Source: Apostichopus japonicus (taxonomy: Eukaryota > Echinodermata > Holothuroidea > Aspidochirotida > Stichopodidae). From it: DNA of 64,000 bases. This document shows, one piece after another, positions 15,454-49,246 of this stretch. The stretch spans positions 14,417,001-14,481,000 of the forward strand of contig NC_092561.1 of the NCBI RefSeq assembly GCF_037975245.1. Direction: 5' to 3'. The first letter of the stretch is position 1, and each line of letters opens with the position of its first letter. Under the pieces are notes generated by a model that was not told the origin of the DNA, did no database searches, and saw nothing but the letters and a program-made list of their open reading frames with translations. The position numbers and the translations under genes were made by a program.

Positions 15454-15540
15454 CTACAATCACCATGAATTCCAACACCAATTTCGGTTTTCAGAGAAGA
15501 CATCGACGAAGATCGGGGGATAAAAAAGAGAGATTAATTA

Positions 15541-16162: not shown

Positions 16163-16176
16163 GATAAGAATATTGT

Positions 16177-16323
16177 ATGTTCAACCATCTTGAATTCCAA
16201 AATGGCTGCTTGGCATTCAGAACTAACATGTGATGCAAGTACTTCTCTAGATTTACAGTTATCCTGATGTAACTTCCCACCTGTACTACAATTCACATTT
16301 TGGAATTCAAGATGGTTGAACAT
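16177..16323. repeat. Inverted repeat, 28-bp perfect arms
   Basis: Arms 16177-16204 and 16296-16323 are exact reverse complements, each including AACCATCTTGAATTCC or its complement. Spacer 91 bp. Confidence 0.85.
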
Positions 16324-16419
16324 GTTACCAACAAAGGGGCCCAGCATTAATATCACTGAGCCTAGTGAAATACTTGACGATAAAAACATGGCAATGTTTT
16401 ATTTTGTTTTATTTTTATA

Positions 16420-16870
16420 ATGTTGTTGATCTAATTGGATTCCTGAACTCTGAAAACATGGGTTTGTGAAAGTGAAAATAGTTCCAAATGGCGGCCATTT
16501 TGAATTTCAGTATGGCTTCCTCAGCACAATGTCCCAGTGTTAATGTTGTTATTCTTATTGGATTCCTTGACCCTAAAAACATGGGTATAGACACCAGAAT
16601 TATAACTCTATGTGCCTTAGAAGCTTAGTTATAGGTAAAAATAGTTCCGAATTGGCGGCCATTTTGAATTTCAAAATGGCCGCTGCAGCGCAATGATCCA
16701 ATGGTTATGTCTTTGTTCTAACTGGATTCCTTGACCAAGAAAACATGGGTATTAACACCAGAATTATAACTCTATGAGCCTTAGACGCCGAGATATGAGT
16801 GAAAATAGTTCCAAATGGCGGCCATTTTGGAAAATGGCGGATATGCAGAGTCGATCCCAACATTTTCAAT
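16420..16870. repeat. Tandem repeat, about three 120-170 bp units
   Basis: GGATTCCTTGACC...AAAACATGGGTAT and AATAGTTCC...TGGCGGCCATTTTG recur in order near 16,440-16,510, 16,560-16,670 and 16,725-16,830. Intronic, c13-c14. Confidence 0.8.
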
Positions 16871-17184
16871 GGTAACATGCAAAATATTGTTCGGACGGGT
16901 CTCCTGAACAAAATGATACCACTCGTAGAGAGTCTTGGGGGGGGGGTGCTTGGTGGGTCCTGCTAGCCCATAGACTAAGCGGGCCCCCTTTTGGTTGGGC
17001 CCCCGGCTCAGCAAGGTCCGAACCAATAGGAGTTACGGTACTGGATAATACATAAGTATAACCTTTCCGTTACAGATATATAATTTTCGAACTGTGTAGC
17101 ATGTAGAGAAAAGTCGCAAAACCAATGATTTCACCAAGTGTCGTTCACAATTAGATAAGGACAAAATCAAGTGGAAACATATAC

Positions 17185-17247
17185 CCCGGTAACTGGACTT
17201 ATCCTTGTCGTTTCGATGCTTCTCTCCAACTGTGGTCGACAGTTTTC
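17185..17247 (-). CDS. Anoctamin exon c13, intracellular loop
   Basis: 63 nt, phase 0-0: ENCRPQLERSIETTRISPVT, then G. It supplies the RPxxE...NPVTG-like stretch expected between the acidic loop and TM3. Acceptor AATTAG, donor GTATAT. Being symmetrical, it could be skipped. Confidence 0.85.
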
Positions 17248-17611
17248 CTAATTTATAGGATACAAGAAGGAAAAAAAGGAAAGATACATAAAAGTGAGGA
17301 AGTTTTTTTCTTGACAGCTTTTTAATATCCGTTTTCATTATACCTATGAAATATACAAGTTGTGACCAACGAATATGTTTACAACAACATGAAACATTCA
17401 CTTTTACCAAAATCTTCAGAGTGAATTGTCCACGACTATAGGACCATTTTCTAGCTTTATATTCAAGTACTGAATAAAAGACTACACTGTGAATGCTTTA
17501 AACCTACAATGCAACTTAAGTAAAGGGTATACAGACACCGAAAATATGAATTCGCCATATTATGGCCTATGAAGTTATATCCACTTAAATCAGCTCTTGT
17601 TCGTAACATAC

Positions 17612-17694
17612 CTCGGTCTCTTCATATCCAATAGCATCCCATTCACACGCAGTGGTTTTTTCATGCCGTTTCCAAAACTCACAGAAAACTGTAG
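17612..17694 (-). CDS. Anoctamin exon c12, WKR motif
   Basis: 83 nt: ATVFCEFWKRHEKTTACEWD, then AIGYEETE. Cytosolic end of TM2 and start of the first intracellular loop. Acceptor ATGCAG, donor GTATGT. Confidence 0.95.
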
Positions 17695-18557
17695 CTGCAT
17701 TTATAACAGAAATAATGGAAAGCGCAGATTCTTTTTTTTTAGGGTCTACAACCTCTCCCTCTAAGATTGCTAAATGAAAAACTTAAACCGCTTTAACAAG
17801 AATGGAAAATGAATTAATGTTTCGTCGTTGGGATACATGTTATGGTATGAAGCTTAATTTGTTAAATTAACGTAATATATTAACATATTGACGTTTTATA
17901 ACGTTATATATTTATGACTCCTCTGAAGACGGTGAAGTTCATGTTCTGTTGCTGCAATAGCTGATTCGGCAGTGTACGAACATATTCCTCACTTTCTGTT
18001 GTTTTTAACCACCTCCTAAACGACTGAATTTTCTATAAACGTTTTTTTTTGTGCGTGTATGGGGGGAGGAGAGGAGAGGAGGTTCCGCCATGACGGGAAG
18101 TTGTGTCTCGCAGACCCTTAGAACCAGAGGTCAAAAGTTGAAATAAGTAAAAAGTGATCTTTTTGCTGTGACTTTTCAAGGAGAAATATTGAATCGACGT
18201 GCAACCTTCACAAGTATATTGGAATTGCGTTTTCTATATAAAAAAGTATGGCTCGTCCTTGTTTTCTGCAACTAGATTTCTTACAGCGCGGTGGTATACA
18301 ATTAATGATAAAAAGAACAAGAGAGTGTTCACGCACGTATTGAATTTGGGGGATTTCTTTGCAGTATTTAGATATGCAACTCCATGGGTTGCCTTCTTTA
18401 TTAATTTCTCAATCGTGACAAAAGAAAACTAGTTTCATTTCTGTCATTTATCACATATTAGAGAGTAACCAAAATGGTAATCATATTATACTGCCAAAGA
18501 ACATGAATACATTTTAGAAAATTTAAAAGAAGGGAGTGAACGTACGCTGAGACTTAC

Positions 18558-18618
18558 CCCATAGGGACATGAAACTTGCAAAAAATATTGTTGCACCATT
18601 ATCAAACAGGTAGGTTAA
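18558..18618 (-). CDS. Anoctamin exon c11, TM2 start
   Basis: 61 nt: LTYLFDNGATIFFASFMSLW, one base over. FDNGATxFFA is strongly conserved in the family. Acceptor TTTTAG, donor GTAAGT. Confidence 0.95.
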
Positions 18619-19111
18619 CTAAAAGTTGAAAGAACATGTGAACGGAGGAGTAAAAAAGAAAAAGTTCATGGCAGATAGTATAAACTGTGGCAGCATAACA
18701 TTATACGATAATGGATATAAAGTCCTAAAACATTGAATTTCTCTTTTTCTACATTTTAGATCTGGGTTTCGTTGTTTTTCATAACGTTCTTTATAATTTG
18801 CATATGTTCACTATGAATTTAACTTAGCCAAAAAGTAACTGAAATTTTTGTTGACGAACACACATGTGGCTGCGTAAATTGGATACTTAGCTATATCCGA
18901 AGTGAAGTGTAAGCCAATCGGTGTTAGCTGATCTTAGATCTTTGTGATAGGAATTGAATACTAATATGTATCCTTGTATCCTATTTGGCAATTATTCTTT
19001 TGTTAGTTCATCTCATTCTCGCTTGTACTGTTATTTAATGCAAATAGGGGGTTTGTTTTACATCAACACAAGTTGAAAACTTCACAGATAAGTTTCGAAG
19101 GTACCGTTTAC

Positions 19112-19217
19112 CTTTGCATACATACACCTCGATGAAAGATGCGAATAGTCACAATCTTGATCGCAGCTGGGGCACATGATTATGCTCCCAGTACCGTTTC
19201 TGTCGCAAATTTCGTTT
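19112..19217 (-). CDS. Anoctamin exon c10, extracellular cysteine loop
   Basis: 106 nt: NEICDRNGTGSIIMCPSCDQ, then DCDYSHLSSRCMYAK. The Cys pattern (EIC...MCPxCDxxCDY...C) is that of the TM1-TM2 extracellular loop. Acceptor CATAG, donor GTAAAC. Confidence 0.95.
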
Positions 19218-21617: not shown

Positions 21618-21752
21618 ACTTTGATATTGTATTCAAGAGTTATACAAGCCAAGAGGAAGGTGACTACTCCAAAGATGGCTGCGAAGGTCAGCATAATCGT
21701 GTAGTACCCCAACCAGGAGAAGTACAAAGCTACCCTCTCTCCAAAATAATTC
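21618..21752 (-). CDS. Anoctamin exon c9, TM1
   Basis: 135 nt, from NYFGERVALYFSWLGYYTIM through a hydrophobic run to LEYNIKV. This is TM1 with the conserved YFGE and YFxWLG motifs. Acceptor ATGTAG, donor GTAAGC. Confidence 0.96.
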
Positions 21753-22420: not shown

Positions 22421-22485
22421 CTGACTAAGTGCAAAGGCTGTTTTTTGTAGAAATTGTTAGGTCTGGCCCAGTCTTCATAGAGGAC
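22421..22485 (-). CDS. Anoctamin exon c8
   Basis: 65 nt: VLYEDWARPNNFYKKQPLHL, then VR across the junction. The WAR and KKQPL motifs match the pre-TM1 segment of the family. Acceptor TACAG, donor GTAAGT. Confidence 0.94.
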
Positions 22486-24681: not shown

Positions 24682-24764
24682 CTGTCGGTCGTTTCGAGCG
24701 TAATAAGGTTTATCTACTTTCCAATCTCCATCATGAAGAGGGTAAGCTGGCACTTTTTTATTGT
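24682..24764 (-). CDS. Anoctamin exon c7, YPLHDG motif
   Basis: 83 nt. After completing a D codon it reads NKKVPAYPLHDGDWKVDK and ends YYARNDRQ at GTAAGC. AYPLHDGD is a family signature just before TM1. The acceptor is ATCCTAG. Confidence 0.92.
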
Positions 24765-25859
24765 CTAGGATGTTAACTTTGTTTAAGAGGAGAAAATATT
24801 CAACGATATGACTTAGTAAAAAAGCACCATGGAGTCTGTTGATAAGACTCAGTGTGAATGTCACAAATGTAACCAATTAAAATAAGGGTTTCCCGTGGCA
24901 ATTAAATAGTTGCTAATTGCATAAATAATCAATACATCTGTTATCTTTATAAAGAAAGGGACCGGTATCACATCCCTTGATAAAAACTAAAACTATATCA
25001 ACTGCTCATTCTCATCAGACTCACTGTCATTTACAGACGGAGAAATTTTCTACGTATACGAATGCTTGTTATCCCAGTAATCAAACGTCCTTGTAAAAGA
25101 GAAGAAATTGAAAGGCCACAAATAGGTTCGCCGCTAGCAAAACAAACAGAATCAGTTTTGGCTACGAGATATGCAATAAACGACAAACTCGTGGAAGTCT
25201 CAAAAGAAGTGATTAACGGAAAGAATTTGTCAGTTTAAAACTATTAACCAGCGAAAGGTTGAACGAACATTTGGTACGTTATGAAGAAATAGTAAACTCC
25301 CAATTGAATATCGGCATAGTCTGTAAAATATTACTTTGTAAAATAAGGAGAATAACCCAGAACCGCTTCAATGTGGGTTTTATCATTAACTGTAACCTAC
25401 TGTAAGCAAAGCGACACTTTACGGTATATCCCTTGCAAAATTATCATTATCATGATAAAAGGCACAATGCAAGGCTGCAAGGATTTCAACTGTTCCAAAC
25501 GATGGAAGCATATTCTCAGCCAATATGAATGGAAACAGTTTACCAGTCTAACCATTGAGGCCATTCAGTACTATTACTGCAGCAATTACTGAGTATGAGT
25601 TCGCATGAGCAGAAATATAGCCTATAATGATAGCCTATAATGATCTTGACGATTATACGGTTCTATGGTACCCATACACTGCAGATGTGATATGAAAGAA
25701 GCTATATTTGATTTCGACCTAGTCAATTGCAGATGAGCCGGTCAGTCGGGCTACAAACTAAATGGCAGGCGGGCTGTATAGCTTCACTCACATCTTGCTT
25801 AGTGATCGGAGTGAACGTTGTGTATATATAAGATTGACATATTGATTATGCATACATTC

Positions 25860-27002: not shown

Positions 27003-27056
27003 AATATTTCTTCCCGCTTGGATCGTATTGCGGATGTTCTTCAAAATTTCATTAAC
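27003..27056 (-). CDS. Variable exon v28, diverged last copy
   Basis: 54 nt: VNEILKNIRNTIQAGRNI. Acceptor TTACAG, donor GTGAGT. It is separated from v27 by 3.4 kb. It could be a default or ancestral copy, or could be constant; the sequence alone cannot say. Confidence 0.85.
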
Positions 27057-30000
27057 CTGTAATTATGGTAAGTCACGGAGGAAAGATTGCAGCTTACTGA
27101 TAAGCAATAACGACAAGGAATGTAAACAATTTGTTTAACAAGAGCAAAGCATTTTCAAGATATTTAACGGCACAACTGTTCGAATCTATTCAACGACATT
27201 CTTACAGAATTTTCAGGAAATAACTGGAGAAAATACTAGCAACTTGTGACGATAAAGCAATTGACAGCACACTAGGACAAGGTCTTTCAATATCATAGAT
27301 CTTTATACCACATCGAAAGAGATTTAATAGCATAGATATTGTCAATAACCAAATAATTCTTAGAATCACCCAATTTCATCCCAAAGTCTAAATTGCTTGG
27401 ACCAAAGACTGGTTAATTTTTTTGACTGCAGAACAGTGCAAAACAGCTTTAAAAAAGGCCGATTTGACAAAACTTGAGAAATGCTGATTTTTTGTACCTA
27501 GTGTTTGTTTATAAACTGCTTTTGAATTATTATGTAAACTGCATGGTTTCAATCATCATCCTCTTATCTGTACATGTTTTAAGTTGTATGTTTGTACGCT
27601 AAGTGTTTAGAATGCTCCTATGCGACTTTCATACTATCAGCTCTGTTCTTTCAAACAGTTTCCTTGAATTTTTTAACTCTAATACTATCAACAACTTTTT
27701 TGTTGTAAGAGCTTTTCTTCGTGTAAACGTATTTTGAAGTCTTTAATGGTAATTCTCTAGATGAAGACTCAGTTCGATGTTAAGAATGCTTTTTATGATT
27801 TCACATCTGTAATCTTAGAGTTATTACATCTACATACACATGCGTCTTATGTGTAAGGAATTAAACAAAGTACTCAAGCATCAAGAGATCCATAAAGTTA
27901 TTTTTCAGTACAGGTGATAATACCACCCTCCTTTAAGCTTGATAATGCTAACCAATTTCATAAATTGGAAACGATCAAATGGTTCCCAAATACTATGATA
28001 TTAATGACTTTCAGAACCTAACAAATGAATAACTCAGCTTAATTCATCTCAATAGCTGTAGCCGATATAATAAATTGCACGACATATCCGGTTATCCCCA
28101 GCAACTGAACCACACTTATTGGTAATATGGCATTGAAACATGGTTTGACGGTGACATCTCCCCTTTTTTACAATTGGAATATGTTTGTTATGTTGATTTT
28201 TATCTTAAAAAAACAAGGGTGGTGGGTTTATCGAGGTGATTTTCACTTTCATATACTTTCATATATTTCTCACTTAAATGATAATATCGGAAGTATCTTT
28301 TGAGGTATGTGTACCTTGTTAAACCACAATGCTATTGTTGGGGTTGACTATTGAGCTGCATTTTCTTTGAAGTATTATGCCGGAGTAGTTATTTAGGTAC
28401 CATACCACAATTAGAGTAGTGTACGTCCGCGTGAAAGGTTAACCTTTGGAAAATAGTTCTAAAGTGACCTACTCTAGTGGCTTTTGGCATACTTTGAATC
28501 ATAATCATTATACATTTTGATACATGGATGTTGAAGTGGATGAACAAACTGATGGTGGTCTAAAAATCTGGAGGATTGAAGAAGATTAAAGGCATTATAG
28601 AAAATCCTGGGTGAAACATAGAGATAGCCACGAGAGACCTGGCAGATGGGTTGCAGAGCACCATGCTAACTTTGAGCTCTTGTAGCGCAAAATCTGAACC
28701 TTCATGGTGGCAAAAATCGAATGTTCTGTGATAGTTCAAGCCCTCAGATATCATATGGTGGGTAGGACATTTCAGTTGAAAACGTCAATCTATGCATAAG
28801 CAGCCTTGAAAAGTGACGAAATTTAGTGTGTAAGTTAATGGAGCACTTACTTGTGGCAGAACAACTTTGATGGGGGGGGGGGGGTTAATATCGACCTCGT
28901 GGATAATGCCTCATCTGACGTTATTTAATATTGTCTTGTCCTATGGTTTCATGCCTTCCACTACCAAACCAACTCTAGGTTGTGCTACTAGTGCTTCCCT
29001 TATATAATATCTTGATAACATTGTGACTAATAGTAGCACATTGGCATTGTGGACCGAAATGTAACGGTCGCATCATTTGCATATCTCGAAGACCAGTAGT
29101 ACTTCTTTCGAAGCTATTCCAAAGCAAATCAGGCGACTTTCATGACTTGTATTTCTGTCACAAGATTAAAATAAGGCATAAGCTACTTTTGTCAGAGTAT
29201 TCAATAGGATATAAAATACATCATTTCCTTCTGTATAGTCGCAAGAAAATGGAAATAGCAAGTTTGAATGAGAGTGACAACTCTCTCAAACACAAAACTA
29301 GGCAATACAAAAAGTTTCTGAGTTCTCGGTAAGACGCAAATAAGTTAATTTATACAACTTATCGCAACAAAGTAATCATAGTAATCGTATTGCTAAACAA
29401 TACCTTACTTAAAGGATTTATTTACTGAGCAAAGCAGAATGATAATGAAATCCCCCCAAAAAAAATTAATGCAAGTTCTCCAGAGAAAAAACATTCACAG
29501 ACCGCAGGTGGTTCGTAAGGATTTCAGTTACTTCGCTAGTGCATTCAATCACGTCCTTGTAAGTCTCAGGGTGTCGGCATACTTTGTTGATTGTAAAATG
29601 ACCTATCGAGAGTAATTCGTCGAGCAATTTAAATTGGTCTTACTTTATCTTCCTTCTCATCGTTGTACTGTGTGGTCCACTACAAACAAGTCGCTAAACC
29701 GATACGTCATTCTCCAGAAAAAGCTTTTGTTATGTGTGTGCTGCTGGCCCACGTGATCACCCTAACAACTTAATTCATTTTTTTTTCAAATTTAGTGACA
29801 TGTTAGTGACACTTTATTCACATCGTTTCCGAACTAATGCTTTACCAAATTCTTTTGTTAGCTTCTTTGTTCACTACCATCACATCAGAAACTCAATTCG
29901 TCCTCGTTCTGTACATGCAGTTACCAAGTTTTCTATATACAGCCTTCGTTGTCGTGCTGGTATGATTTGGAATAATCTTTACAGTTACTTTTGATCGATC

Positions 30001-30510
30001 CAACACGTCTTTAGTAGGGCATTTGCTAATAGACCTTTTTAGCTTATATTGACTTTCATCTACATTTTTCTTCTTGGGGGAGGGGAAGGTACTCAGTGAT
30101 GCGATGTATCAGCAGTATTTCGTATTTTTGTTGGAATGTTTTTCTTCCTGCAACGTATGTTTACTTTACTTGAATTTTTCCTCGGGAAATGTGCTCATGC
30201 CAAGCCCACAAGGGTTTTAAGCATACTTCCTCTTCATAACACTTGTTTCTAGTGATTACACTGTACGTCCTTTACTTTGCATTGCTGAACTATAATGAAT
30301 CAAATATAAGTCATTAAATATCTTACTTTTTTACTTTTTATCGGTATTTTCTCGCAAATTTTACTGTGAGTTTTCTTAAAGTCGATAACATCCTGAAACA
30401 TTTCAAACTTTTACTAAACGATTAGCTAATGAATAACACTTATAAATTATTCCTTTCATAGTAACGATTTTAATACAAAAGGGTTAAAATATATTAAAAT
30501 CGGCACTTAC
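27057..30510. other. Intron v27-v28
   Basis: The first 250 bases resemble array intron text. The rest has no further copies of the 54-nt exon that I could find; a LINE fragment lies at 29.7-30.0 kb. Confidence 0.6.
29700..29994 (+). pseudogene. LINE ORF2 C-terminal fragment
   Basis: An 86-aa stretch with YSHRFRTNALPNSF, SIRPRSVHAVTKFSIYSLRC and AGMIWNNL resembles the terminal part of LINE ORF2 proteins. Intronic (v27-v28), antisense to the gene. Confidence 0.5.
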
Positions 30511-30564
30511 AATCATGCTTAGGACTTTATCTGTACAGCGATCATTCTCCAAAATTTGATGAGC
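30511..30564 (-). CDS. Variable exon v27 (class A-like)
   Basis: 54 nt: AHQILENDRCTDKVLSMI. Acceptor AACAG, donor GTAAGTG. It shares the HQIL-DK-L pattern with class E but keeps both splice sites. Confidence 0.86.
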
Positions 30565-30943
30565 CTGTTAGTATGAAAAGACATAAATGGAGCATGCAAG
30601 TAACTGATAAAGCAGGAAGCCGACAAGATATGAAATACATGATTTCAAATAGCAAAGGAGTTTCCTAATTTCTAATGACACAATGAAGTTTGGAACATCC
30701 CGAATCATCTTAGATATTTTTCTTTAATTAAACATGATTTCTGTACATAGTAAAACCATTTAACTATGGCACTCAACAATATTACAGGAAATGAAACTTA
30801 TCCGGGTAGCCGATTTCACCTGAAACATTTCAGTCGTTTACTGAACGATTACCTATAGGGTATAATACTTATAAATTGCTTGTTTCATTTTAACAACTGT
30901 AAATGAAAAAAAATGTAAAATATAAATTAAAATAAGCCCTTAC

Positions 30944-30997
30944 AATCTTGATTAGGATATCATCAGTGATTTTCCCACCCTCCAAACTGGCATGAAC
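30944..30997 (-). CDS. Variable exon v26 (class C)
   Basis: 54 nt: VHASLEGGKITDDILIKI. Acceptor AACAG, donor GTAAGGG. Intact. Confidence 0.84.
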
Positions 30998-31310
30998 CTG
31001 TTAGATGAAAAGCCATAAAAGAAACATGGAAGTTAATGATAAACACGAAACCGACAAGAGATAAAAAATACACGACTTCAAAAAGCAAAGGAGTTTCCTA
31101 ATTTTTATGACAGAATGAAGTTCGGAATATCCCGAATCATCTTCGTTAACTTTCTTTCAATTAAACAGGATTACTGTACAGAGTAAAACCATTTTACTAT
31201 GGCACTCAACAATTTTACAGGAAATGAAACTTATCCGGGTAGCCGATTTCACCTGAAACATTTACGTCGTTTAATGAACAATTACCTCAGATACCATACT
31301 TATACATTAT

Positions 31311-32160
31311 GTATTTAGTTTATTTTATTTATTTATTTGTTTTGCCACAAAATTACAGAGTGGAGGGAAGTCTTCCGTAAAGCTTAAATGCTTAACTATG
31401 TGGAAGATTCCCTGAAGAAAGAAAGGAAAAAAGAAAAAAAATATTTATGTGTATAAATACATATACATAAGTATAAGTACAATTTAAATGTTCAACATAT
31501 ATATAGTAATTACATACAGGTATAGTTTGGTTTTAGTCAGTAACTAGCTATTATTTCCTTACAAAACCACTTCTTAAAGGATGTGACTGACATTTTACTC
31601 TTTAAATCGTTCGTTAGAAGATTCCATGTTTTTGTTGCACGGTTTTGTAGGCTTAAAGTTCCAATGGTGGTATTGTAGAGATTATAGTAGGCATGATTAG
31701 CATGCCCCGTGTTATGATTATGTACATCTCTGTTACTGGCTTGAAAACTAGTCAAAGGCAGCTGGTAGTAATCCATTCCAGGTCTTGTAGGCAAATAATG
31801 CAAGCTTAACTTTAATGAGATCGTGCAATTTTAGTAAGTTGAGTTTCTTAAATAGGGGACTGGTGTGCTCACGTGTGGCTGAGTGTGTTATGTGGCGAAT
31901 GTCTGCCTTTTGGAGTATTATAAGTTTGTTAAGGTTGGTGTTGTATGTACCAGACCAAATAATGGAACAATAAGTGAGATGCGGGACAATCAGGGTCTGG
32001 TATAGTGTTCTGAGTATGTTTTCCGATAGATAGTATTTCAACTTAGATAATATGCCAACATTCCGTGCAATTATACTGCATATAGTTGAAATATGGTTGC
32101 GCCAGCTAAGTTAACAATCAATATTTACACCTAAAAAGTTAGTAGTATAAACTTGCTTAA
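31311..32160 (-). mobile_element. 5'-truncated LINE inserted in the exon array
   Basis: Two frames cover the reverse transcriptase end: TLYQTLIVPHLTYCSIIWSG and LNKLIILQKADIRHI, then YNTTIGTLSLQNRATKTWNL to the terminal FCKEIIASY. One frameshift near 31,770 separates them. The 3' UTR contains TGGAGGGAAGTC and the element ends in short T-rich repeats. Same family as the copy at 52 kb. It separates v25 from v26. Confidence 0.82.
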
Positions 32161-32223
32161 TTATTTTATTGTAACAATTGTAAATGTAGAAAAGGTGAAA
32201 TATACATTAAAATAAGCACTTAC

Positions 32224-32277
32224 AATCCTGCTTAGGTCGTCATATGTGAAGTGGTTTCTCTCTAAACTTTCAAGATC
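32224..32277 (-). CDS. Variable exon v25 (class C)
   Basis: 54 nt: DLESLERNHFTYDDLSRI. Acceptor AACAG, donor GTAAGTG. Intact. It lies next to the LINE insertion in the array. Confidence 0.85.
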
Positions 32278-32942
32278 CTGTTAGTATGAAAAGTCATAAA
32301 ATAAACATAGAAAATGGTAAGCAGAAAACTGTTAAAAAATGTAAACGGTTGGTAATAAAAGCAACTTTAAGGAAATCTCTTAATGTTTAACGGCCTAAAA
32401 TAAGTTCCGAGTATCTCAAGCCATCTTCGTTAACCTTTTTGTCTTCAATTAAACAGGATTTGCTAATGAAGAATATTTATATATATTATTCCTTTCATTT
32501 TGAAGGGGGGGGGGGGGTAGTTGGGTTGGATGGTATATTGATGGCGGGATAAAGACGTTTACTCCGAAAATTGTCTGAAATGTATTCGATTTTAGTTTAA
32601 ATAGGAGAAGTATTTGTCGTTTTCAGGACTTCAGACAGTTTCCCCGATTTATAAACCTCACGTCTCAAGTGCAAAGTCGAAGCGTTTGCCAGCCGTCTTC
32701 GACTAAAGCTGCCTCATCTAACTCAACATCCAGATCTCGTACACGTTTCCAGCTTGTAGGCTCATTTACTATGGCACACAACAGAATGACAGGAATGAAT
32801 TCTATCTGAGATATCGATTACACTTGAAACATTTCAGTATTTTACTGAACGATTAGCTAAATGAATAAAACTTTTAAATTATTCCTTTCATTGTAAAGTT
32901 TTTCATGCAAAAGGGTAAAAATAGATTAAAATAAGCACTTAC

Positions 32943-32996
32943 AATCCTGCGTAAGTCTCCATCCGTACAGCGTTTATTGTCCAAAATTTGATGAAG
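32943..32996 (-). CDS. Variable exon v24 (class A)
   Basis: 54 nt: LHQILDNKRCTDGDLRRI. Acceptor AACAG, donor GTAAGTG. Intact. Confidence 0.87.
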
Positions 32997-33254
32997 CTGT
33001 TAGTATGAAAAGTCATAAAATAAACAAGCAAGTAAAAGATAAGCAGGAAACCGACAAGAAATGTAAACAGTTAATTTAAAAAAGCAGATTTCAGGCATTT
33101 TCTCACTTTTAATGACAGGTTAAAGTTCAGAGTATCTCGATTTATCTTTGATAACTGCACGATTACCTAAGGTATAATATACTTATGAATTATTTTTTCA
33201 TTTAAACAACTGTAAATGCAAAAATGTAAAATATACATTAAAATAAACCCTTAC

Positions 33255-33306
33255 AATCTTGCTTAGGTTGTCATAGGTGAAGTGTTTTTCTCCAAACTTC
33301 CATGAA
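33255..33306 (-). pseudogene. Variable exon v23 (class C, frameshifted)
   Basis: 52 nt between an altered acceptor (AACAAG) and an intact donor. A base missing near the middle breaks the frame relative to v25, which otherwise matches closely (HFTYD core). Confidence 0.75.
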
Positions 33307-33706
33307 CTTGTTAGTTTTAAAAGTCATGCAAGTAAATGGTAAGCAGAAACTGTTAAGAAATGTAAGCCGTTAAAAAAAGCAACTTTAAGGAATCTCGTAA
33401 TGTCTAACGGCCTAATAAAGTTCCAAGTGTATCTCGAGTCACCTTTGTTAACTTTTTATTCCATTAAACAGGATTTGCTAATGAATAACACTTATACATT
33501 ATTCCTTCATTTTGGTGTGGTGGGGTGGGGGAGGGGGAGGTTATACTGATGGCGGGCTGAAAATGTATGCCCCTCGAAGTGTCTGAAAGTTATTTGTTTT
33601 GAGTTGAAAAAGGAAAAGCGTTTGTCGTTTTCAGGGCTTCAGACAGTTATCCCGTTTTATTAACCTCACGTCTCAAGTGAAGACTATAGCGTTTGCCAAC
33701 CGTCAG

Positions 33707-33842
33707 CCGATACGCATAGCTGATACAGCAACTACTTTTCACGTCCCGCAACTGTGCATCAGTAATTACAACTTTGTGTTCGTATCACGGTAACATGTGT
33801 TACAAGTGGCACCAGTAGTTACTGTACTAGCTATGAGTATCT
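33707..33842. repeat. Intronic hairpin repeat H1
   Basis: Begins CCGATACGCATAGCTGATAC and ends TACTAGCTATGAGTATC; the ends are near reverse complements over about 35 bp. Includes the small palindrome GTAACATGTGTTAC. Lies between v22 and v23. Confidence 0.8.
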
Positions 33843-33995
33843 GTGGATATGAAATGAAATATATCTGGGTAGTCGATTACTCTTGAAACATGACAGTATT
33901 TTTTTTAACTGAACGATTAGCTAATGAATAATTCCTTTCGTTGTAAAATCATTAAATGCAAAAGTGGTAAACATTTGATGTTTATAGTAACTCAC

Positions 33996-34031
33996 AGTCT
34001 TAATTTGTTCTTTGTCTAAAATTTCATGAAC
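33996..34031 (-). CDS. Variable exon v22 (class B)
   Basis: 36 nt: VHEILDKEQIKT. Acceptor TTACAG, donor GTGAGTT. Differs from v8 by one residue (K for T). Confidence 0.86.
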
Positions 34032-34364
34032 CTGTAAGTATACAAAAGTCATCACTGTCACATGTGTTACAAGACATGAACAATAGTTACTGTACCAGCT
34101 ATGAGTATCGAGTGCATCCGTCATCGACTTAAGCTGCCTCTTCTACCTCAACATTCAGATCTCGTACACGTTTCCAGCTTGTAGGCTCATTTACTACGGC
34201 ACTCAACAAAATGACAGGAATGAATTCTATTTGGAAAGTCGATTACGTCTGAACATTTCAATCTTTTACTGAACGATTAGCTAAATAAATAATACTTATA
34301 ACTTATTCCTTTTGTAACGATTTTAAATGCCAAAGAGTAAAAATAGATTAAAATAAGCACTTAC

Positions 34365-34418
34365 AATCCTGCGCAGGTCTTTATCTTTATGGGGTGTATT
34401 CTTCATAATTAGACAAAC
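34365..34418 (-). CDS. Variable exon v21 (class A)
   Basis: 54 nt: VCLIMKNTPHKDKDLRRI. Acceptor AACAG, donor GTAAGTG. Open and spliceable although diverged. Confidence 0.82.
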
Positions 34419-34726
34419 CTGTTAGTATGAAAAGTCATAAAAAACAAGCAAGTAAAAGATAAGCAGGAAACCGACAAGAGATGTAAACAGTTAGTTTGAA
34501 AAAGCAGATTTCAAGCATTTTCTCACTTTTAATGACAGGTGGAAGTTCAGAGTATCTCGATTTATCTTTGATAACTTTCTTTCAATTAAAGATAATTAGC
34601 ATACAGAGTAAACCTAATTTCTTATGTCACCCGAACACATAACAGGAATAAAATTTATCTAAGTAGTCAATTTTACCTGACACATTTCAATCTTTTACTG
34701 AACGATAAGCTAATGAACAACACTTA

Positions 34727-34780
34727 AATCATGCGTAGTACTTTATCGGTAATATGTTTTATCTTGAAAATTTAATGAAA
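34727..34780 (-). pseudogene. Variable exon v20 (class E, donor deleted, stop)
   Basis: The acceptor AACAG remains. The third codon is TAA, and a deletion between two CACTTA direct repeats removed the donor and the adjoining intron text. Confidence 0.8.
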
Positions 34781-34936
34781 CTGTTAGTATAAAAAACATT
34801 AGAAGAAAAATGCCAGAAGAGAATAAACAGAAAACGGAATTAAAATGTAAACAGTTTAATTGAAAAGCAACATTAAGTATTTTCGTGAATTTTCATGACA
34901 CAAAAAGGTAAAAATAAGATAGTAATAAATACTTAC

Positions 34937-34987
34937 AGTCGTACTTTGGTCTTCATCGGTATAGCCCTCATTCTCCAAAATTTCACA
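34937..34987 (-). pseudogene. Variable exon v19 (class D, acceptor lost)
   Basis: The core EILENEGYTDEDQSTT is open with a good donor GTAAGTA. The acceptor position reads AAATTGTG with no AG, as in v3 and v10. Confidence 0.75.
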
Positions 34988-35033
34988 ATTTACATTTTTT
35001 AAATTTAAAATATGCATTAGAATAAGCACTTAC

Positions 35034-35087
35034 AATACTGCTTAGACCGCCATACGTGAAGCGTTTATTCTCCAAACTTTCACGAAC
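35034..35087 (-). CDS. Variable exon v18 (class C)
   Basis: 54 nt: VRESLENKRFTYGGLSSI. Acceptor CACAG, donor GTAAGTG. Intact. Confidence 0.87.
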
Positions 35088-35269
35088 CTGTGAGATGAAA
35101 AGTCATATCACAAACATGCAAGTAATGATAAGCAGTAAACCGACAAGAAGTTTAACACATGGTTTGAAAAAGCAACACAATTTCCTGCTTTTTCATGAAA
35201 AACTGAAAATATGATTACTGTAGAGAGGAAAACCATCTTACTATTGCACTAAACAGCATGGCGGGACAG

Positions 35270-35405
35270 CCGATATATAGCTGGTACAGCAACTACTGTT
35301 CATGTCCCTTAACTATGCATCAGTCACAACTACTTTGTGTTCGCAACACGGGTAACATGTGTTACAAGTGGCACCAGTAGTTACTGTACTAGCGATGAGT
35401 ATCGG
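35270..35405. repeat. Intronic hairpin repeat H2
   Basis: Copy of H1 between v17 and v18, with ends CCGATATATAGCTGGTAC and TACTAGCGATGAGTATCGG. Confidence 0.8.
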
Positions 35406-35566
35406 GTGGACAGGAATTGAAATATATCTGGGTAGTCGATTACACTTGAAAAATGCCAGTATTTAACTGAACGATTAGCTAATGAATAACACTTATAAAT
35501 TATTTCTATCATTGCAACAATTTGAAATGGTAAAAGAGTAAAAAGAAGATTAAAATAAGCACTTAA

Positions 35567-35621
35567 AATCTTGCCTAAGACTTTAAAGGGTAATATGTTT
35601 TATCGTAAGCGTTTGACTAAC
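35567..35621 (-). pseudogene. Variable exon v17 (class E, donor lost, stops)
   Basis: The acceptor AACAG is present but the donor is TTAAGTG instead of GTAAGTG. The length is 55 nt, and the reading frames contain TAA. Confidence 0.78.
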
Positions 35622-35782
35622 CTGTTAGAATGAAGAGTCATAAAGGAAACAGTGCGAGTAAATAATAAACAGGAGGCGGACAGAAATGTAAACAGTTAGA
35701 TTGAAAAAGCAACTTTAAGGAATTTAATGATTTTTTTTTTATGACACAAAAGGGTGTAAATTTGATTGTAATAAACACTAAT

Positions 35783-35833
35783 AGTCGTACTTTGGTCTTC
35801 ATCGGTATAGCGCTCATTCTCCAAATTTCCCAA
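35783..35833 (-). pseudogene. Variable exon v16 (class D, both sites lost)
   Basis: The core resembles NERYTDEDQSTT. The donor GTAAGT has become ATTAGT, the acceptor AG is absent and a base is missing in the first codons. Confidence 0.75.
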
Positions 35834-35878
35834 TTAAAATTTTTAAATTTTAAAATATGCATTTAAAAAAGCACTTAC

Positions 35879-35935
35879 AATAATACTGCTTATGCCGTCA
35901 TTTTTGAGGAGTTTCTTGTCCAAACTTTCATGAAC
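35879..35935 (-). CDS. Variable exon v15 (class C, 57 nt)
   Basis: 19 codons: VHESLDKKLLKNDGISSII. Acceptor CACAG, donor GTAAGTG. It carries one extra codon compared with the 54-nt copies and is the longest intact array exon. Confidence 0.84.
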
Positions 35936-36118
35936 CTGTGAGATGAAAAGTCATGTTTGAAACATGCAAGTAATAATAAGCAGTAAACCAACAAGAAGTT
36001 TAAACACACGGTTTGAGAAACAAACACAATTTCTTGCTTTTTAATGACAAAATGAAAATATGATTACTGTACAGAGTACAACTATCCTACTATTGCATTC
36101 AACAACATGACGGGACAG

Positions 36119-36255
36119 CCGATACTCATAGCTGTTACAGCAACTGCTATTCATGTCCCTTAACCACGCAACAGTCACAACTACTTTGTGTTCGTAACAC
36201 GGTAACATGTGTTACAAGTGGCATCAGTAGTTACTGTACTAGCGATGAGTATCGG
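36119..36255. repeat. Intronic hairpin repeat H3
   Basis: Copy of H1 between v14 and v15, with ends CCGATACTCATAGCTGTTAC and TACTAGCGATGAGTATCGG. Confidence 0.82.
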
Positions 36256-36416
36256 GTGGACAGGAGATGAGATCTATCTGGGTAGTAGATTACACTTGAA
36301 AAATGAAATTATGTAACTGAACGATTAGCTAATGAATAATACTCATACATTATTCCTTTCATTGTTACAACCTAAAATGCAAAAATTGTAGAAATTTGAT
36401 GTTAATAAGCACTCAC

Positions 36417-36452
36417 AGTGGTAATTTTTTCGTTGTCTAAAATTTCCTGAAA
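36417..36452 (-). CDS. Variable exon v14 (class B)
   Basis: 36 nt: FQEILDNEKITT. Acceptor TACAG, donor GTGAGTG. Intact. Confidence 0.82.
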
Positions 36453-36785
36453 CTGTATACAAAAGTCATCATAAAAAAAAAAACGTGCACAAATATAGCA
36501 GGAAACCGACAGAGAATGTAAACACATGATTTGATAATGAAAAGGAATTTCCTGATTTTCAATGACACGATGAAAATATGATTACTGTACAGAGGAAAAC
36601 TATTTTATTATTGCACTCAACAACATGACGGGAATCGAGATCTATCTGGGTAGTCCATTACACCTAAAACATGGCAGTATTTTACTGAACGATTAGCCTA
36701 ATGAATAATCCTTTTGAATAATTCCTTTCATTGTGACTATTTCAAATAACAAAATGGTAATTATCTGATGTTAATAAGAACTCAC

Positions 36786-36836
36786 AGTCGTAAGATCTAG
36801 ATCGATGAAATCATCGTTCTCTAAAATTCCATGTAC
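36786..36836 (-). CDS. Variable exon v13 (class B, long)
   Basis: 51 nt: VHGILENDDFIDLDLTT. Acceptor AACAG, donor GTGAGTT. Intact. Confidence 0.86.
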
Positions 36837-37157
36837 CTGTTTGTATACAAAGTCATAAGAAAAAAACGTACAATAATAGAGCAGAAAACAGACAGAGAAT
36901 GTAAACACATGATTTGATAATGAAAAGAAAGTTCGTGATTTTCAATGACACGATGAAAATATGATTACTGTACAGAGGTAACTATTTATTATTGCAATCA
37001 ACAACATGACGGAAAATGAGATCTACCTGGGTAGTCAATTACACCTGAAACATGGCAGTATTTAACTGAACGATTAGCTAATGAATACGGTAATTCCTTT
37101 CATTTTGACAATTTCAAAAACAAAAAAAGTAAACATTTGATGTTATTAAAAACTCAC

Positions 37158-37208
37158 AGTCGTAAGATCTTCATCGATCAAAGGATCGTTGTCTAAAATT
37201 TCATGAAC
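37158..37208 (-). CDS. Variable exon v12 (class B, long)
   Basis: 51 nt: VHEILDNDPLIDEDLTT. Acceptor TTACAG, donor GTGAGTT. The full-length form of class B, showing that the 36-nt members are internally deleted in frame. Confidence 0.88.
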
Positions 37209-37867
37209 CTGTAAGTATACAAAAGTTATCAGGAAAACAAAGTGCAAGATTAGCAGAAAACCGACAGGGAATGTAAACACTTGATTTGAAAATGCAAAAG
37301 AATTTCCTGATTTTCAATGACACGATGAGTTTCCGATTATCCCAGGCTAAAGATGAAGGCTCCGCGAAGTGTCTGATATGTATTCGTGTTTTAAAGTAAA
37401 GTGGAAAAGCGTTTCCAGACAGTTACCCCATTTTAATAAAATCACGTCTCAAGTGAAAACTCGAAGTGTTTGCAAACCGTCATCGACTAAAGCTGCTTCA
37501 TCTACCTCAACATACAGATCTATGATCTATGATGAGCAGGAAACCGACAAGAAATGTAAACAGTTAGCTTGAAATAGCAAATTTAAGGAATTTGCTGATT
37601 TTCAATTACACGATGAAGTTTCGAGTATCTCAATTTTATCTTTGATAACATTTTCAATTAAAGATAATTCCTGTACAGAGCAAAACTTATTTTTTATGGC
37701 ACCCGAACACATGACAGGAATGAAATATATCTAAGAAGTCGATTTTACCTGAAACATTTCAAGCTATTACTAAACGATAAGCTAAGGTGTAATACTTATA
37801 AATTATTCCTTTCATTGTAACGATTTTAAATGCAAAAGGGTTAAAATAGACTAAAATAGGCACTTAC

Positions 37868-37921
37868 AATCCTGCGTAGGTCTTCATCTGAACAGCGTTT
37901 TTTCTTCATAATTTCACGAAC
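37868..37921 (-). CDS. Variable exon v11 (class A)
   Basis: 54 nt: VREIMKKKRCSDEDLRRI. Acceptor AACAG, donor GTAAGTG. Intact. Confidence 0.88.
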
Positions 37922-38181
37922 CTGTTAGTACAAATAGTTATAAAAGAAACAAGCATGTATAAATGATAAGCATGAAAACGAACAAAAATGTAAAAAGTTA
38001 GTTTGAAAAAGCAGATTTAAGGAATTTGCTGATCTTCAATGACACAATGAGGTTCCAAACATCTCGATTTATCTTCATTAACTTTCTTTTATTTAAAAAA
38101 TAATTAATAATAATTTTAAGGAATTTCATGATTTGTTTTATGTTACAAAGGGGTAAAAATTGGATAGTAATAAATACTCAC

Positions 38182-38232
38182 AATCGTACTAATTTAGTCT
38201 TCATTGGTATAGCGCTCATTCTCCATAATTTC
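38182..38232 (-). pseudogene. Variable exon v10 (class D, acceptor lost, stop)
   Basis: The core EIMENERYTNED is followed by TAA, and the acceptor shows the same AAATTGTG change as v3 and v19. The donor (GTGAGT) remains. Confidence 0.8.
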
Positions 38233-38281
38233 ACAATTTACATTTTTAAAGTTTAAAATATGCATTAAAATAAGCACTTAC

Positions 38282-38335
38282 AATATTTTTAACGCAGTCA
38301 TATCTGAGAAGTTTTTCCTCGAAGTTTTCTGTAAC
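38282..38335 (-). CDS. Variable exon v9 (class C)
   Basis: 54 nt: VTENFEEKLLRYDCVKNI. Acceptor GACAG, donor GTAAGTG. Intact though diverged. Confidence 0.8.
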
Positions 38336-38454
38336 CTGTCAGATAAAAAGTCACATCAGGAACATGCAAGTAATGATAAGCAGTAAACCGACAAAAAGTC
38401 TAAACACATGGTTATTACATGGTTACTGTTGCACTCAACAACATGAAAGGACAG

Positions 38455-38590
38455 CCGATACCCATGGCTGGTACAGCAACTACTGTTCATGTCCCTCAAC
38501 CGTGCATCAGTAGGTATTACTACGTGTTCGTAACACGGTAACATGTGTTACAAGTGGCACAAGTAGTTACTGTACTAGGTATGAGTATCT
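38455..38590. repeat. Intronic hairpin repeat H4
   Basis: Copy of H1 between v8 and v9. A half copy (right arm only) is at about 34050-34112, next to v22. Confidence 0.8.
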
Positions 38591-38738
38591 GTGGACATGA
38601 AATGAAATATATCTGGGTAGTCGATTACACCTGAAACATTGCAGTATTTTACTGAACGATTAGCTAATGAATGATTCCTTTCATTGTAACATCATTAAAT
38701 GCGAAAATGGTAAACATTTGATGTTTATAGTAACTCAC

Positions 38739-38774
38739 AGTGGTAATTTGTTCTTTGTCTAAAATTTCATGAAC
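38739..38774 (-). CDS. Variable exon v8 (class B)
   Basis: 36 nt: VHEILDKEQITT. Acceptor TTACAG, donor GTGAGTT. Intact. Confidence 0.86.
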
Positions 38775-39404
38775 CTGTAAGTATACAAAAGTCATCAGGA
38801 AAAAAAAAACGTGCAAGCTTAGCAGAAAACCGACAGAAAATGTAACACTTGATTTGAAAATGCAAAAGAATTTCCTGATTTTCAATGCTTCGATGAGTTT
38901 CCTATTATCCCGGGCTCCGCGAAGTGTCTGAAATGTATTTCTTTTTAAAGTAAAGAGGAGAAGCGTCTCCAGACAGTTACCCCATTTTAATAAAATCACG
39001 TCTCAAGTGAAAACTCGAAGTGTTTGCCAACCGTCATCGACTAAAGCTGCTTCATGTACCTCAACATACAGATCTATGATCTATGATGAGCAGGAAACCG
39101 ACAAGAAATGTAAACAGTTAGTTTGAAAAAGCAGATGTTTTGAATTTGCTGATTTTCAATTACACGATGAGGTTCCGAGTATCTCGATTTTATCTTTGAT
39201 AACTTTTTTTTTCAATTAAAAATAATTCCTGTACAGAGCAAAACTAATTTTCTATGGCACCCGAACACATGACAGGAATGAAATATATCTAAGTAGTCGA
39301 TTTTACCTGAAACATTTCACGCTATTACAAAACGATAAGCTAAGGTGTAGGTGTAATACTTATAAATTATTCTTTCATTGTAGCGATTTTAAAATAGGAC
39401 TTAC

Positions 39405-39458
39405 AATCCTGCGTAGGTCTTCATCTGTACAGAGTTTTTTCTCCATAATTTGATGAAC
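39405..39458 (-). CDS. Variable exon v7 (class A)
   Basis: 54 nt: VHQIMEKKLCTDEDLRRI. Acceptor AACAG, donor GTAAGTC. Intact. v5, v6 and v7 are a run of three close class A copies at about 440-bp spacing. Confidence 0.88.
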
Positions 39459-39837
39459 CTGTTAGTACAAATAGTCATAAAAGAAACACACATGTGTAAT
39501 AGATAAGCAGGAAACCGACAAGAAATGTAAAAGTTAGTTTAAAAAGCAAATTAAAGGAATTTGCTGATCTTCAATGACACGATTAGATTTCGAATATCTC
39601 GATTTATTTTTAATAACCTTCTTGCAATTAAAGATAATTATTGTACAGGGTAAAACTAATTTTCTATGTCAGCCGAACCCATGACAGGAATGAATTTTAT
39701 CTAAGTAGTCGATTTTACCTGAAACATTTCAAGTCATTACTGAACGATAAGCGTAGGTGTAACACGTATAACTTATTCCTTTCATTGTAACAACTTTAAA
39801 TGCAAAAGGGTTAAAATAGACTAAAATAAGCACTTAC

Positions 39838-39891
39838 ACTCCTGCGTAGATCTTCAACTGTACAGCTTTTTTGCTTCATAATTTGATGAAC
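39838..39891 (-). CDS. Variable exon v6 (class A)
   Basis: 54 nt: VHQIMKQKSCTVEDLRRS. Acceptor ATCAG, donor GTAAGTG. Intact. Confidence 0.86.
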
Positions 39892-40277
39892 CTGATAGTA
39901 CAAATAGTCATAAAAGAAACATGCATGTACATGATAAGCAGGAAACCGACAAGAAATTTAAACAGTTAGTTTGTAAAAGCAAATTGAAGGAATTTGCTGA
40001 TTTTCAATTACACGATGAGGTTCCAAATATCTCGATTGTATCTTTAATATCTTTCTTTCAATTAAAGATAATTCCTGTACAGAGCAAAACTAATTTTCTA
40101 TGTCACCCGAACACATGACAGAAATGAAATATATCTAAGGAGTCGATTTTACCTGAAACATTTCACCCATTTAATAAACTATAAGCTTAGGTGTAGGTGT
40201 AACACTTATAAATTATTCCTTTCATTATAACGGTTTTAAATTCAAAAGGGTTAAAATAGACTAAAATAAGCACTTAC

Positions 40278-40331
40278 AATCTTGCGTAGGTCTGCATCTG
40301 TACAGCGCTTTTTCTTCATGATTTGATGAAC
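40278..40331 (-). CDS. Variable exon v5 (class A)
   Basis: 54 nt: VHQIMKKKRCTDADLRKI. Acceptor TTACAG, donor GTAAGTG. Intact. Confidence 0.88.
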
Positions 40332-40717
40332 CTGTAAGTACAAATAGTCATAAAATAAACATGCATGTACATGATAAGCAGGAAACCGACAAGAAATTTA
40401 AACACTAAGTTGAAAAAGCAGATTTTAGGAATTTGCGGTTTCAATGACACGAGGTTCCGAATATGAGGTTCCGAATATCTCGATTGTATCTTTGAAAACC
40501 CTTCTTTCAATTTAAGATAATTATTGTACAGAGTAAAACTAATTTCCTAAGTCATCCGAAAATATAACAGGAATGAAATCTATCTAACTAGTCGATTTTA
40601 CCTGAAACATTTTTATATTTTACTTTAAGATAAGCTAAGGTATAACATAAATTATTACTTTCAGTGTAACAATTTTATATCCAAACGGGTAAAAAGAAGT
40701 CCAAAATAAGCACTTAA

Positions 40718-40771
40718 AATTCTGCGAAGGAGTTTATCAGTAATGTGTTTTGTCTTCAAAATTTGATGAAC
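40718..40771 (-). pseudogene. Variable exon v4 (class E, both splice sites lost)
   Basis: The frame is open (VHQILKTKHITDKLLRRI), but the donor GT is TT and the acceptor ACAG has become ATGG, so it should not be spliced as an exon. Confidence 0.78.
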
Positions 40772-40939
40772 CCATCAGTATCAAAAGTCACAACTTGTAA
40801 GATACAATGCGACTAAAGTATATACAGCAAAACAATGGACAAGGAAATGTAAACAGTTACTTTGAAAAGTAATTTTGAGGAATTTCATGATTTGTTTATG
40901 TCACAAAAGGGTAAAATTTAGATAGTAATAAATACTCAC

Positions 40940-40990
40940 AGTCCTACTTTGGTCTTCGTCGGTATATAGCGTTTATTCTCCAAAATTCAC
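40940..40990 (-). pseudogene. Variable exon v3 (class D, acceptor lost)
   Basis: Homologous to the array exons, with a usable donor (GTGAGT). The acceptor AG is replaced by AAATTGTG, the same lesion as in v10 and v19. Confidence 0.75.
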
Positions 40991-41037
40991 AATTTACATA
41001 TTCGAAGTTTAAAATATGCATTTAAGTAAGCACTTAC

Positions 41038-41082
41038 AACACTGCGTACGCCGTCATATTCATTCTCTGAACTTCCAGGAAA
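41038..41082 (-). CDS. Variable exon v2 (class C, short)
   Basis: 45 nt: FPGSSENEYDGVRSV. Acceptor AACAG, donor GTAAGTG. It has a 9-nt in-frame internal deletion compared with class C. Confidence 0.72.
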
Positions 41083-41410
41083 CTGTTAGATGAAAAGTCA
41101 TATCAGAAACATGTAAGTAATGATAAGCTGTAAACCGACAAAAAGTTTAAACACATGGTTTGAAAAAAAAACACAATTTCTTGCTTTTTCATGACAAAAT
41201 GAAGATATGATTACTGTACGGAGGCCAACTATCTTACTATTACACTCAAGATCATGACAGAAAATGAGCTCTAACCGGGTAGTCGATTGCACCTGAAACA
41301 GGCCAGTATTTTATTGAACGTTTAGGTAATGAATAATAACTATGAATAGTTCCTTCATTGTAACGATTTTTAAATAAATTGAAATAGTATTGATATTATT
41401 AAGAACTCAC

Positions 41411-41446
41411 AGTCGTAATTTGATCGTTGTCTAAAATTTCATGAAC
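41411..41446 (-). CDS. Variable exon v1 (class B)
   Basis: 36 nt: VHEILDNDQITT. Acceptor ACAG, donor GTGAGT. It is the first array member after c5 and lacks the 15-18 nt middle part of the longer copies. Confidence 0.82.
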
Positions 41447-41774: not shown

Positions 41775-41838
41775 AATCCTACTCCGTGTAGCATTTGAGA
41801 AGTACTCTTCCTTGCATTTCTCACTTATCTCAGTAAAG
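41775..41838 (-). CDS. Anoctamin exon c5, last constant exon before the array
   Basis: 64 nt, phase 2 in and 0 out. It completes the L codon from c4, then reads FTEISEKCKEEYFSNATRSR followed by I. The TRSRI ending is where other anoctamins continue with a V-x-EIL helix, and every array exon starts with that type of sequence. The acceptor is GCTACAG and the donor GTGAGT. Confidence 0.92.
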
Positions 41839-43279: not shown

Positions 43280-43401
43280 AGTTTTTCTTTCTCCATTTCA
43301 AAAGCAAAATTATCATATTTGCTCTTTGGCTGGACGATGTCTTTGTTGAATGCAAATGGGTCTGGAATTTTTCTCCTAATCCAACTCGAGATAAGCGATG
43401 G
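43280..43401 (-). CDS. Anoctamin exon c4
   Basis: 122 nt, phase 0 in and 2 out. It reads PSLISSWIRRKIPDPFAFNK, continues to KYDNFAFEMEKEKL and ends at GTAAGT. The W-R-x-K-I-P-x-PFAF pattern fits the linker after the dimerisation domain. The start was chosen at TCCCAG because it gives phase 0; an ATTAG nearer the motif would not. The donor is 23 bases from the edge of a long inverted repeat. Confidence 0.82.
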
Positions 43402-47771: not shown

Positions 47772-47906
47772 CTCATTCCACAATGTCGGTTTACGTTTTT
47801 TCTGTTTATGTAGCCAACTCATGGGCATTTTTATTTTCATCAGTTCTGCATGACGAGCAAGAGTTTTCCAGGGAGCATGGATCTTTATGAAGACCACTTT
47901 ACCGTC
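47772..47906 (-). CDS. Anoctamin exon c3, KIHAPW motif
   Basis: 45 codons, phase 0-0, running from DGKVVFIKIHAPWKTLARHA through LMKIKMP to TLWNE. FIKIHAPW and the IKMP stretch are hallmarks of the anoctamin N-terminal domain. The acceptor follows a pyrimidine-rich tract (TTTCTTTGTCTCTT). The longer ORF around it runs into introns and is not all coding. Confidence 0.88.
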
Positions 47907-49090: not shown

Positions 49091-49246
49091 CTGCACCTCT
49101 GTTTCAAGTCCCTTGCCCTCGATAATCTTACAGTAATGTACCACTTTTGGCAGAGTTTCATAGTTTACATCGTTTTCCAATGGAAAAGCCACGACGTAAT
49201 CAATTTTTTTGGTTCCACAACTGCATCTTATACTCTTGGCATTGCA
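49091..49246 (-). CDS. Anoctamin exon c2, N-terminal cytosolic domain
   Basis: 52 codons, phase 0-0. It begins CNAKSIRCSCGTKKIDYVVA and ends EGKGLETEVQ at GTAAGT. KKIDYVV is the usual first strand of the anoctamin dimerisation domain. The acceptor TTTTCAG is followed directly by TGC. A second possible acceptor (GATGCAG) lies 22 bases inside but would change the phase. Confidence 0.85.

Follow-up and report, generated by a model that had tools for sequence, protein, structure and literature searches.

The window analyzed here is a stretch of 64,000 nucleotides (nt) from the holothuroid Apostichopus japonicus (contig NC_092561.1, positions 14,417,001 to 14,481,000), and it contains, on the minus strand between about 49.2 and 3.4 kb, a gene in which a single short segment of an anoctamin (TMEM16) protein is represented by a tandem array of homologous exons. 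When one variable copy is included, the closest solved relatives of the joined protein (730 amino acyl residues) in phmmer searches are ANO1 and ANO6, with expectation values (E) of 1.1e-160 (a match in two stretches) and 5.6e-145, respectively, and the similarity spans nearly the whole length. Pfam searches with the N-terminal half carrying array copy v5 give 132.5 bits for Anoct_dimer and 108.9 bits for Anoctamin, and the downstream exon c18 obtains 85.4 bits in the test for anoctamin domains. Judged by these similarities, the gene encodes an anoctamin, as a preliminary description of the same stretch had proposed, while Ca2+-activated channel or scramblase activity is a prediction only.

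The exon array

A profile search identifies 28 homologous units arranged head to tail on the minus strand, from position 41446 down to 27003, between constant exon c5 and the exons that follow, where one exon would stand. Two profile models, each trained on half (ten) of the 20 intact units, recover all other units in both directions (18/18 at E<0.01); these half-trained models find no additional unit in the window at E below 0.05, and the first of them gives zero matches below 0.01 across ten 64-kb Markov control sequences. Twenty of the 28 units are intact: AG and GT stand at the homologous positions, the frame is free of stops, and the number of nucleotides is a multiple of three. All 20 are of phase 0-0, the same phase throughout; their lengths are 36 nt (four exons), 45 nt (one), 51 nt (two), 54 nt (twelve), and 57 nt (one), and no two of the 20 encoded peptides, 12-19 residues long, are alike. 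The preliminary description had counted 28 homologous exons in one intron-like interval, at least 20 of them intact and of phase 0-0, and both counts are reproduced.

Intact copies were sorted by eye, from peptide and donor, into type A (VHEILD...TT, donor GTGAGT), type R (VHQIMKKKRCTD.DLRRI), and type S (V.ESLE...), with v28 standing apart from all three. The other eight units are broken: four of type C lack the acceptor AG at the homologous site, three that resemble type R (R') have donors broken in a similar manner, and v23 is the eighth. The units, all on the minus strand (-), are:

41411..41446 (-): v1, VHEILDNDQITT, intact, type A
41038..41082 (-): v2, FPGSSENEYDGVRSV, intact, type S, poor domain fit
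40940..40990 (-): v3, broken, without acceptor, type C
40718..40771 (-): v4, broken acceptor and donor, frame open, type R'
40278..40331 (-): v5, VHQIMKKKRCTDADLRKI, intact, type R
39838..39891 (-): v6, VHQIMKQKSCTVEDLRRS, intact, type R
39405..39458 (-): v7, VHQIMEKKLCTDEDLRRI, intact, type R
38739..38774 (-): v8, VHEILDKEQITT, intact, type A
38282..38335 (-): v9, VTENFEEKLLRYDCVKNI, intact, type S, poor domain fit
38182..38234 (-): v10, broken, type C
37868..37921 (-): v11, VREIMKKKRCSDEDLRRI, intact, type R
37158..37208 (-): v12, VHEILDNDPLIDEDLTT, intact, type A
36786..36836 (-): v13, VHGILENDDFIDLDLTT, intact, type A
36417..36452 (-): v14, FQEILDNEKITT, intact, type A
35879..35935 (-): v15, VHESLDKKLLKNDGISSII, intact, type S
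35783..35831 (-): v16, broken, type C
35567..35621 (-): v17, broken donor, stop, type R'
35034..35087 (-): v18, VRESLENKRFTYGGLSSI, intact, type S
34937..34986 (-): v19, broken, type C
34727..34780 (-): v20, broken donor, stop, type R'
34365..34418 (-): v21, VCLIMKNTPHKDKDLRRI, intact, type R
33996..34031 (-): v22, VHEILDKEQIKT, intact, type A
33255..33307 (-): v23, broken acceptor (CAA), frameshift, type S
32943..32996 (-): v24, LHQILDNKRCTDGDLRRI, intact, type R
32224..32277 (-): v25, DLESLERNHFTYDDLSRI, intact, type S
30944..30997 (-): v26, VHASLEGGKITDDILIKI, intact, type S
30511..30564 (-): v27, AHQILENDRCTDKVLSMI, intact, type R
27003..27056 (-): v28, VNEILKNIRNTIQAGRNI, intact, last array unit

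In the alignment with the ANO1 chain from the PDB, the segment encoded by these exons corresponds to approximately residues 250-267; it belongs to the cytosolic N-terminal domain, inside Pfam Anoct_dimer, between TRSRI and the YPLHDG region. The preliminary description had placed it adjoining the first transmembrane segment (TM1); this has to be corrected, as TM1 presumably starts roughly 60 residues after the varied segment.

Coding character of the live copies

Frame and splice integrity go together in the array. All 20 splice-competent units, and one of the eight others, combine an open frame with a length divisible by three (Fisher P 6.8e-6, an optimistic value because the units are related and the ends of the dead type C exons were placed by us). 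Length differences among live exons are multiples of three without exception; in their 100-nt flanks (19 intact exons, v28 left out), 33 of 41 distinct gap blocks, counted in three groups, are not. By substitutions alone, the probability that all 17 testable live copies (the 20 less v2, v15, and v28) stay open is 0.004, the chance per copy ranging from 0.42 to 1.00 in exons as short as these.

The Anoct_dimer profile, applied to the live copies one by one (n=20, v5 being scored in a longer construct than the other copies), gives 119.9-138.1 bits; without any copy the score is 110.8 bits in two pieces, and with eight shuffled peptides it is 112.9-126.1 bits in one stretch, each shuffle remaining below its original. 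Since inserted peptides of any kind raise the score, the margin over the shuffles alone counts, and 18 of the 20 live copies outscore all eight shuffles, which agrees with the earlier proposal that the array replaces one canonical anoctamin segment. When the rate of change at codon positions 1 and 2 is set against that of the flanks, whose alignment is noisy, the ratio is 0.18 for the four 36-nt type A exons (P 7e-5) and 0.60 for the two of 51 nt (P for less 0.18). Four type S exons stand at 0.89 and the seven intact type R exons at 1.44 (P 0.04), the last value falling to 1.14 (P 0.25) once v4 and v20, two of the three dead R' units, are counted in. Diversifying selection in type R is not claimed, because of this noise and because the dead type C exons, over all positions, also change more slowly than the flanks (ratio 0.40). 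Taken together, the tracking of splice integrity by the frame and the margin of 18 copies over the shuffles indicate that the splice-competent copies are under coding constraint and that most of them look like real coding exons.

Besides the optimism of the Fisher value, several points, here and in the splicing of the array considered below, weigh against the reading favored below. The domain fits of v2 (119.9 bits) and v9 (125.8 bits) are at the level of the shuffles, and any inserted peptide, shuffled ones included, merges the match into one stretch and scores above no peptide at all. Conservation of donor positions +4 and +5 extends to 27 of 28 units; as the dead units share it, it was dropped as evidence. 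Also, the comparison covers a single genome. In a rival history, use would be confined to one copy or a few, the others being decaying passengers of neutral tandem duplication, a history to which the eight dead units, the duplication of dead units of types C and R' themselves, the chance openness of short exons, and the rates in types S and R, not clearly slower than the flanks at positions 1 and 2, would all conform. Against such decay stand the association of frame and splice integrity, the low probability that the 17 testable copies all stay open, the family-like sequence that 18 copies keep beyond the shuffles, and the constraint on the four 36-nt type A copies, and we regard it as rather improbable.

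Candidate linking microexon and number of copies per mRNA

Twenty-two constant exons with splice sites were located, counting a microexon (mx) and the weak N2, and the gene model apparently is without some exons at the 5' end and in the N2-N3, c12-c13, and c14-c15 intervals. The constant exons are:

49091..49246 (-): N2, possible N-terminal constant exon (weak similarity, splice sites present)
47772..47906 (-): N3, constant exon with KIHAPW motif (tblastn and splice sites)
43280..43401 (-): c4, constant exon
41775..41838 (-): c5, constant exon, ends TRSRI at phase 0, donor GTGAGT
26758-26773 (-): mx, candidate 16-nt linking microexon, TRDQN plus 1 nt, phase 0 in and phase 1 out (supported by frame arithmetic and by comparison with the other candidates of the interval)
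24682..24776 (-): c7, constant exon (VNILDNKKVPAYPLHDGDW...), phase-1 acceptor
22421..22485 (-): c8, constant exon
21618..21752 (-): c9, constant exon, which we take to be the TM1 region
3420..19217 (-): c10 to c22 including c15b, 14 further constant exons, stop codon at 3420-3422

Direct joining of the array copies to the YPLHDG exon (c7) leads to a stop in all 20 live copies. The seven AGs of the open frame into YPLHDG comprise four of phase 1, three of phase 2, and none of phase 0; therefore, a linking exon is required, which the preliminary description had missed. When linkers no longer than about 200 nt are sought between v28 and c7, five that lead to phase 1 have a fair donor, and mx alone combines it with a good acceptor (TTCTAACAG; donor GTAAGT, score 10.8). 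The frame is open through mx for 20/20 live copies. Of five phase-2 candidates, one (25401-25489, 89 nt) has a fair acceptor and a weak donor (5.0) and would make a poor alternative linker. Hence mx is the best candidate, and it presumably serves as the linker. The sequence upstream of mx shares homology with the region preceding the v exons (a 53-nt piece is 87% identical), and for this reason mx may be an offshoot of the array or a long-standing neighbor of it. Upstream of each copy, at a distance of about 40-85 nt, lies a conserved block. As the frame from c5 through mx to c7 is open as well, the array might normally be skipped and its copies rarely included; the loss of domain score and the split of the match without any copy, together with the presence of the segment in both ANO1 and ANO6, make this highly improbable.

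The reading that we favor, at a probability of about 0.6, is that c5 would be spliced normally to one of about 20 live copies, and that the chosen copy would then be joined to mx, resetting the frame for c7. About 20 protein versions would result, differing only in a segment of 12-19 residues whose choice would tune gating, assembly, or partner binding. The sequence itself establishes the gene, the array with its live and dead copies, their phases, the need for a linking exon, and the coding constraint on the live copies. We infer the role of mx as that linker, the use of many copies in mRNA, their use one per mRNA, and the functional effect; one copy per mRNA, as the preliminary description had proposed, is likely.

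What might impose a single choice is not evident in the frame or the introns. Double inclusion keeps the frame (190/190 ordered v-v pairs are open), and of the 27 inter-unit introns the four that measure 47 nt all lead into dead units, the other 23 being at least 156 nt long. Neither a frame break nor short introns enforce a one-copy choice among live copies. A scan for docking/selector pairing (74 windows on two sides, 148 scans) found no pairing convincingly above shuffles, the best mean gain being 3.0 kcal/mol; in the v28-mx intron, some windows show gains of 2.5-2.8 kcal/mol (as much as about 5 standard deviations), each compared with only six shuffles on half of the targets. Upstream of 19 of the 20 live copies plus mx, no consensus RNA structure was found.

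With v-v junctions in frame and no device of intron length or RNA pairing established, the one-copy rule is derived from the domain, as one copy fits the anoctamin family profile best: two tandem copies score 129.8 bits for Anoct_dimer vs 133.1 and 135.9 bits for each alone. The cost of two copies is only 3-6 bits, and three score 132.5 bits, in two stretches. Inclusion of several copies in one mRNA, yielding a linker variable in length and composition, would be in keeping with the significance that the domain match retains in these constructs, with the uniform phase and the lengths of the live copies, and with the many type R and S copies that end like TRSRI of c5, due to which v-v junctions resemble c5-v junctions. 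In contrast, ANO1 and ANO6 each carry just one segment, similar in length, two copies lower the score, and three split the match. We consider such concatenation unlikely.

Segment b of ANO1 presumably occupies a different part of the N-terminal domain than the varied segment. This segment b lowers Ca2+ sensitivity (PMC8480199), and a study of TMEM16F infers additional N-terminal contacts between subunits, although the interface in cryo-electron microscopy is TM10 (PMC10761740). By analogy with these cases, tuning of gating or subunit association by the array-encoded segment is plausible. It is doubtful whether the array amounts to a Dscam-scale splice code in which about 20 Anoct_dimer segments would set subunit pairing or partners, type R diversifying and type A remaining constant; the repertoire of such a code would be even larger if copies concatenate.

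Comparison with known exon clusters and origin of the array

To our knowledge, Dscam is the main case of large exon arrays, which there generate codes for surface recognition. Like arthropod Dscam1, the anoctamin gene has a large head-to-tail array of homologous exons replacing one exon. Unlike Dscam1, to which it is unrelated, its array exons are 36-57 nt long, encode a cytosolic segment, and depend on an obligatory, phase-shifting linking exon; whereas insect Dscam diversifies an outer surface, the anoctamin array would diversify a cytosolic segment. Exclusivity and docking/selector pairing of the Dscam type are conjectural in its case. Fly Dscam clusters contain 48, 33, and 12 exons (PMC6071210), and Dscam clusters reach up to 53 (PMC5740500). 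Other fly clusters, MRP with 8 exons, Mhc with 5 and 3, TepII with 5, and Atp-alpha with 4 (PMC6071210), have in that account at most 8 exons vs 28 units, 20 of them live, here. Within the published accounts compared, mutually exclusive clusters larger than the anoctamin array occur only in Dscam (PMC6071210). Mammalian ANO1/TMEM16A has alternative exons 6b, 10, 13, 13b, 14, 15, and 18, whose splicing changes the N-terminal domain and the first loop (PMC3170211, PMC8480199); they belong to the same family but are single cassettes, and the passages compared describe no tandem array. The preliminary description knew of no such array in TMEM16 genes, and in the open-licence papers searched none was found in a TMEM16/anoctamin gene. 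In the portion of PMC12592175 compared, mutually exclusive exons appear solely in a cited title on another channel, and anoctamin, TMEM16, and the ANO genes looked for are absent from the main text of PMC5740500 and PMC9741552, which treat human tandem or mutually exclusive exons. Twenty live copies in a channel or scramblase would extend Dscam-scale diversity to a cytosolic domain and would provide a natural variant series of one TMEM16 segment, with the linking exon in every in-frame array transcript and the division into types A, R, and S as pointers.

The 45 longest self-alignments of the array are only 65-88% identical, and several of them cover two or three exons, which speaks against an assembly artefact. 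Units v15-17 resemble v18-20 (82%), v7-8 resemble v11-12 (85%), and v2-4 resemble v15-17 (77%). The segment exon would have multiplied, partly as multi-exon blocks, into the 28-unit array; several exons being duplicated at once, dead units recur. The 3' end of c5 (41769-41812) shows a weak similarity to v exons at their 3' ends (E 0.08 and 1.4), and the c5 intron aligns with array introns; it looks as if the founding duplication had started inside c5.

The array introns contain several other elements. Between v25 and v26, at 31540-32110, a remnant of a reverse transcriptase open reading frame resembling long interspersed nuclear elements was recognized by eye; its part at 31751-32110 has no Pfam match below 0.1. 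An insert shared in both orientations lies within 33814-34110, 35277-35408, 36116-36258, and 38456-38589 and is possibly a small mobile element. Of the 25 inverted-repeat pairs listed among 215, seven, including the three longest, fall in this insert; these seven do not occur one per exon, and inverted repeats as a per-exon device were dismissed. Several introns repeat the sequence GTTTCAGGT(A/G), which is similar to a recursive (zero-length exon) splice site and lies about 95-122 nt past v1, v4-v8, v11, v12, v26, and c5; its CAGGT motif is present in many introns and conserved no more than its surroundings, and such a role was not retained. Rfam gives no match within 24600-41900. Elsewhere in the window are a perfect 59-copy AAGA microsatellite (52001-52237) and a 164-bp tandem repeat (16470-16829).

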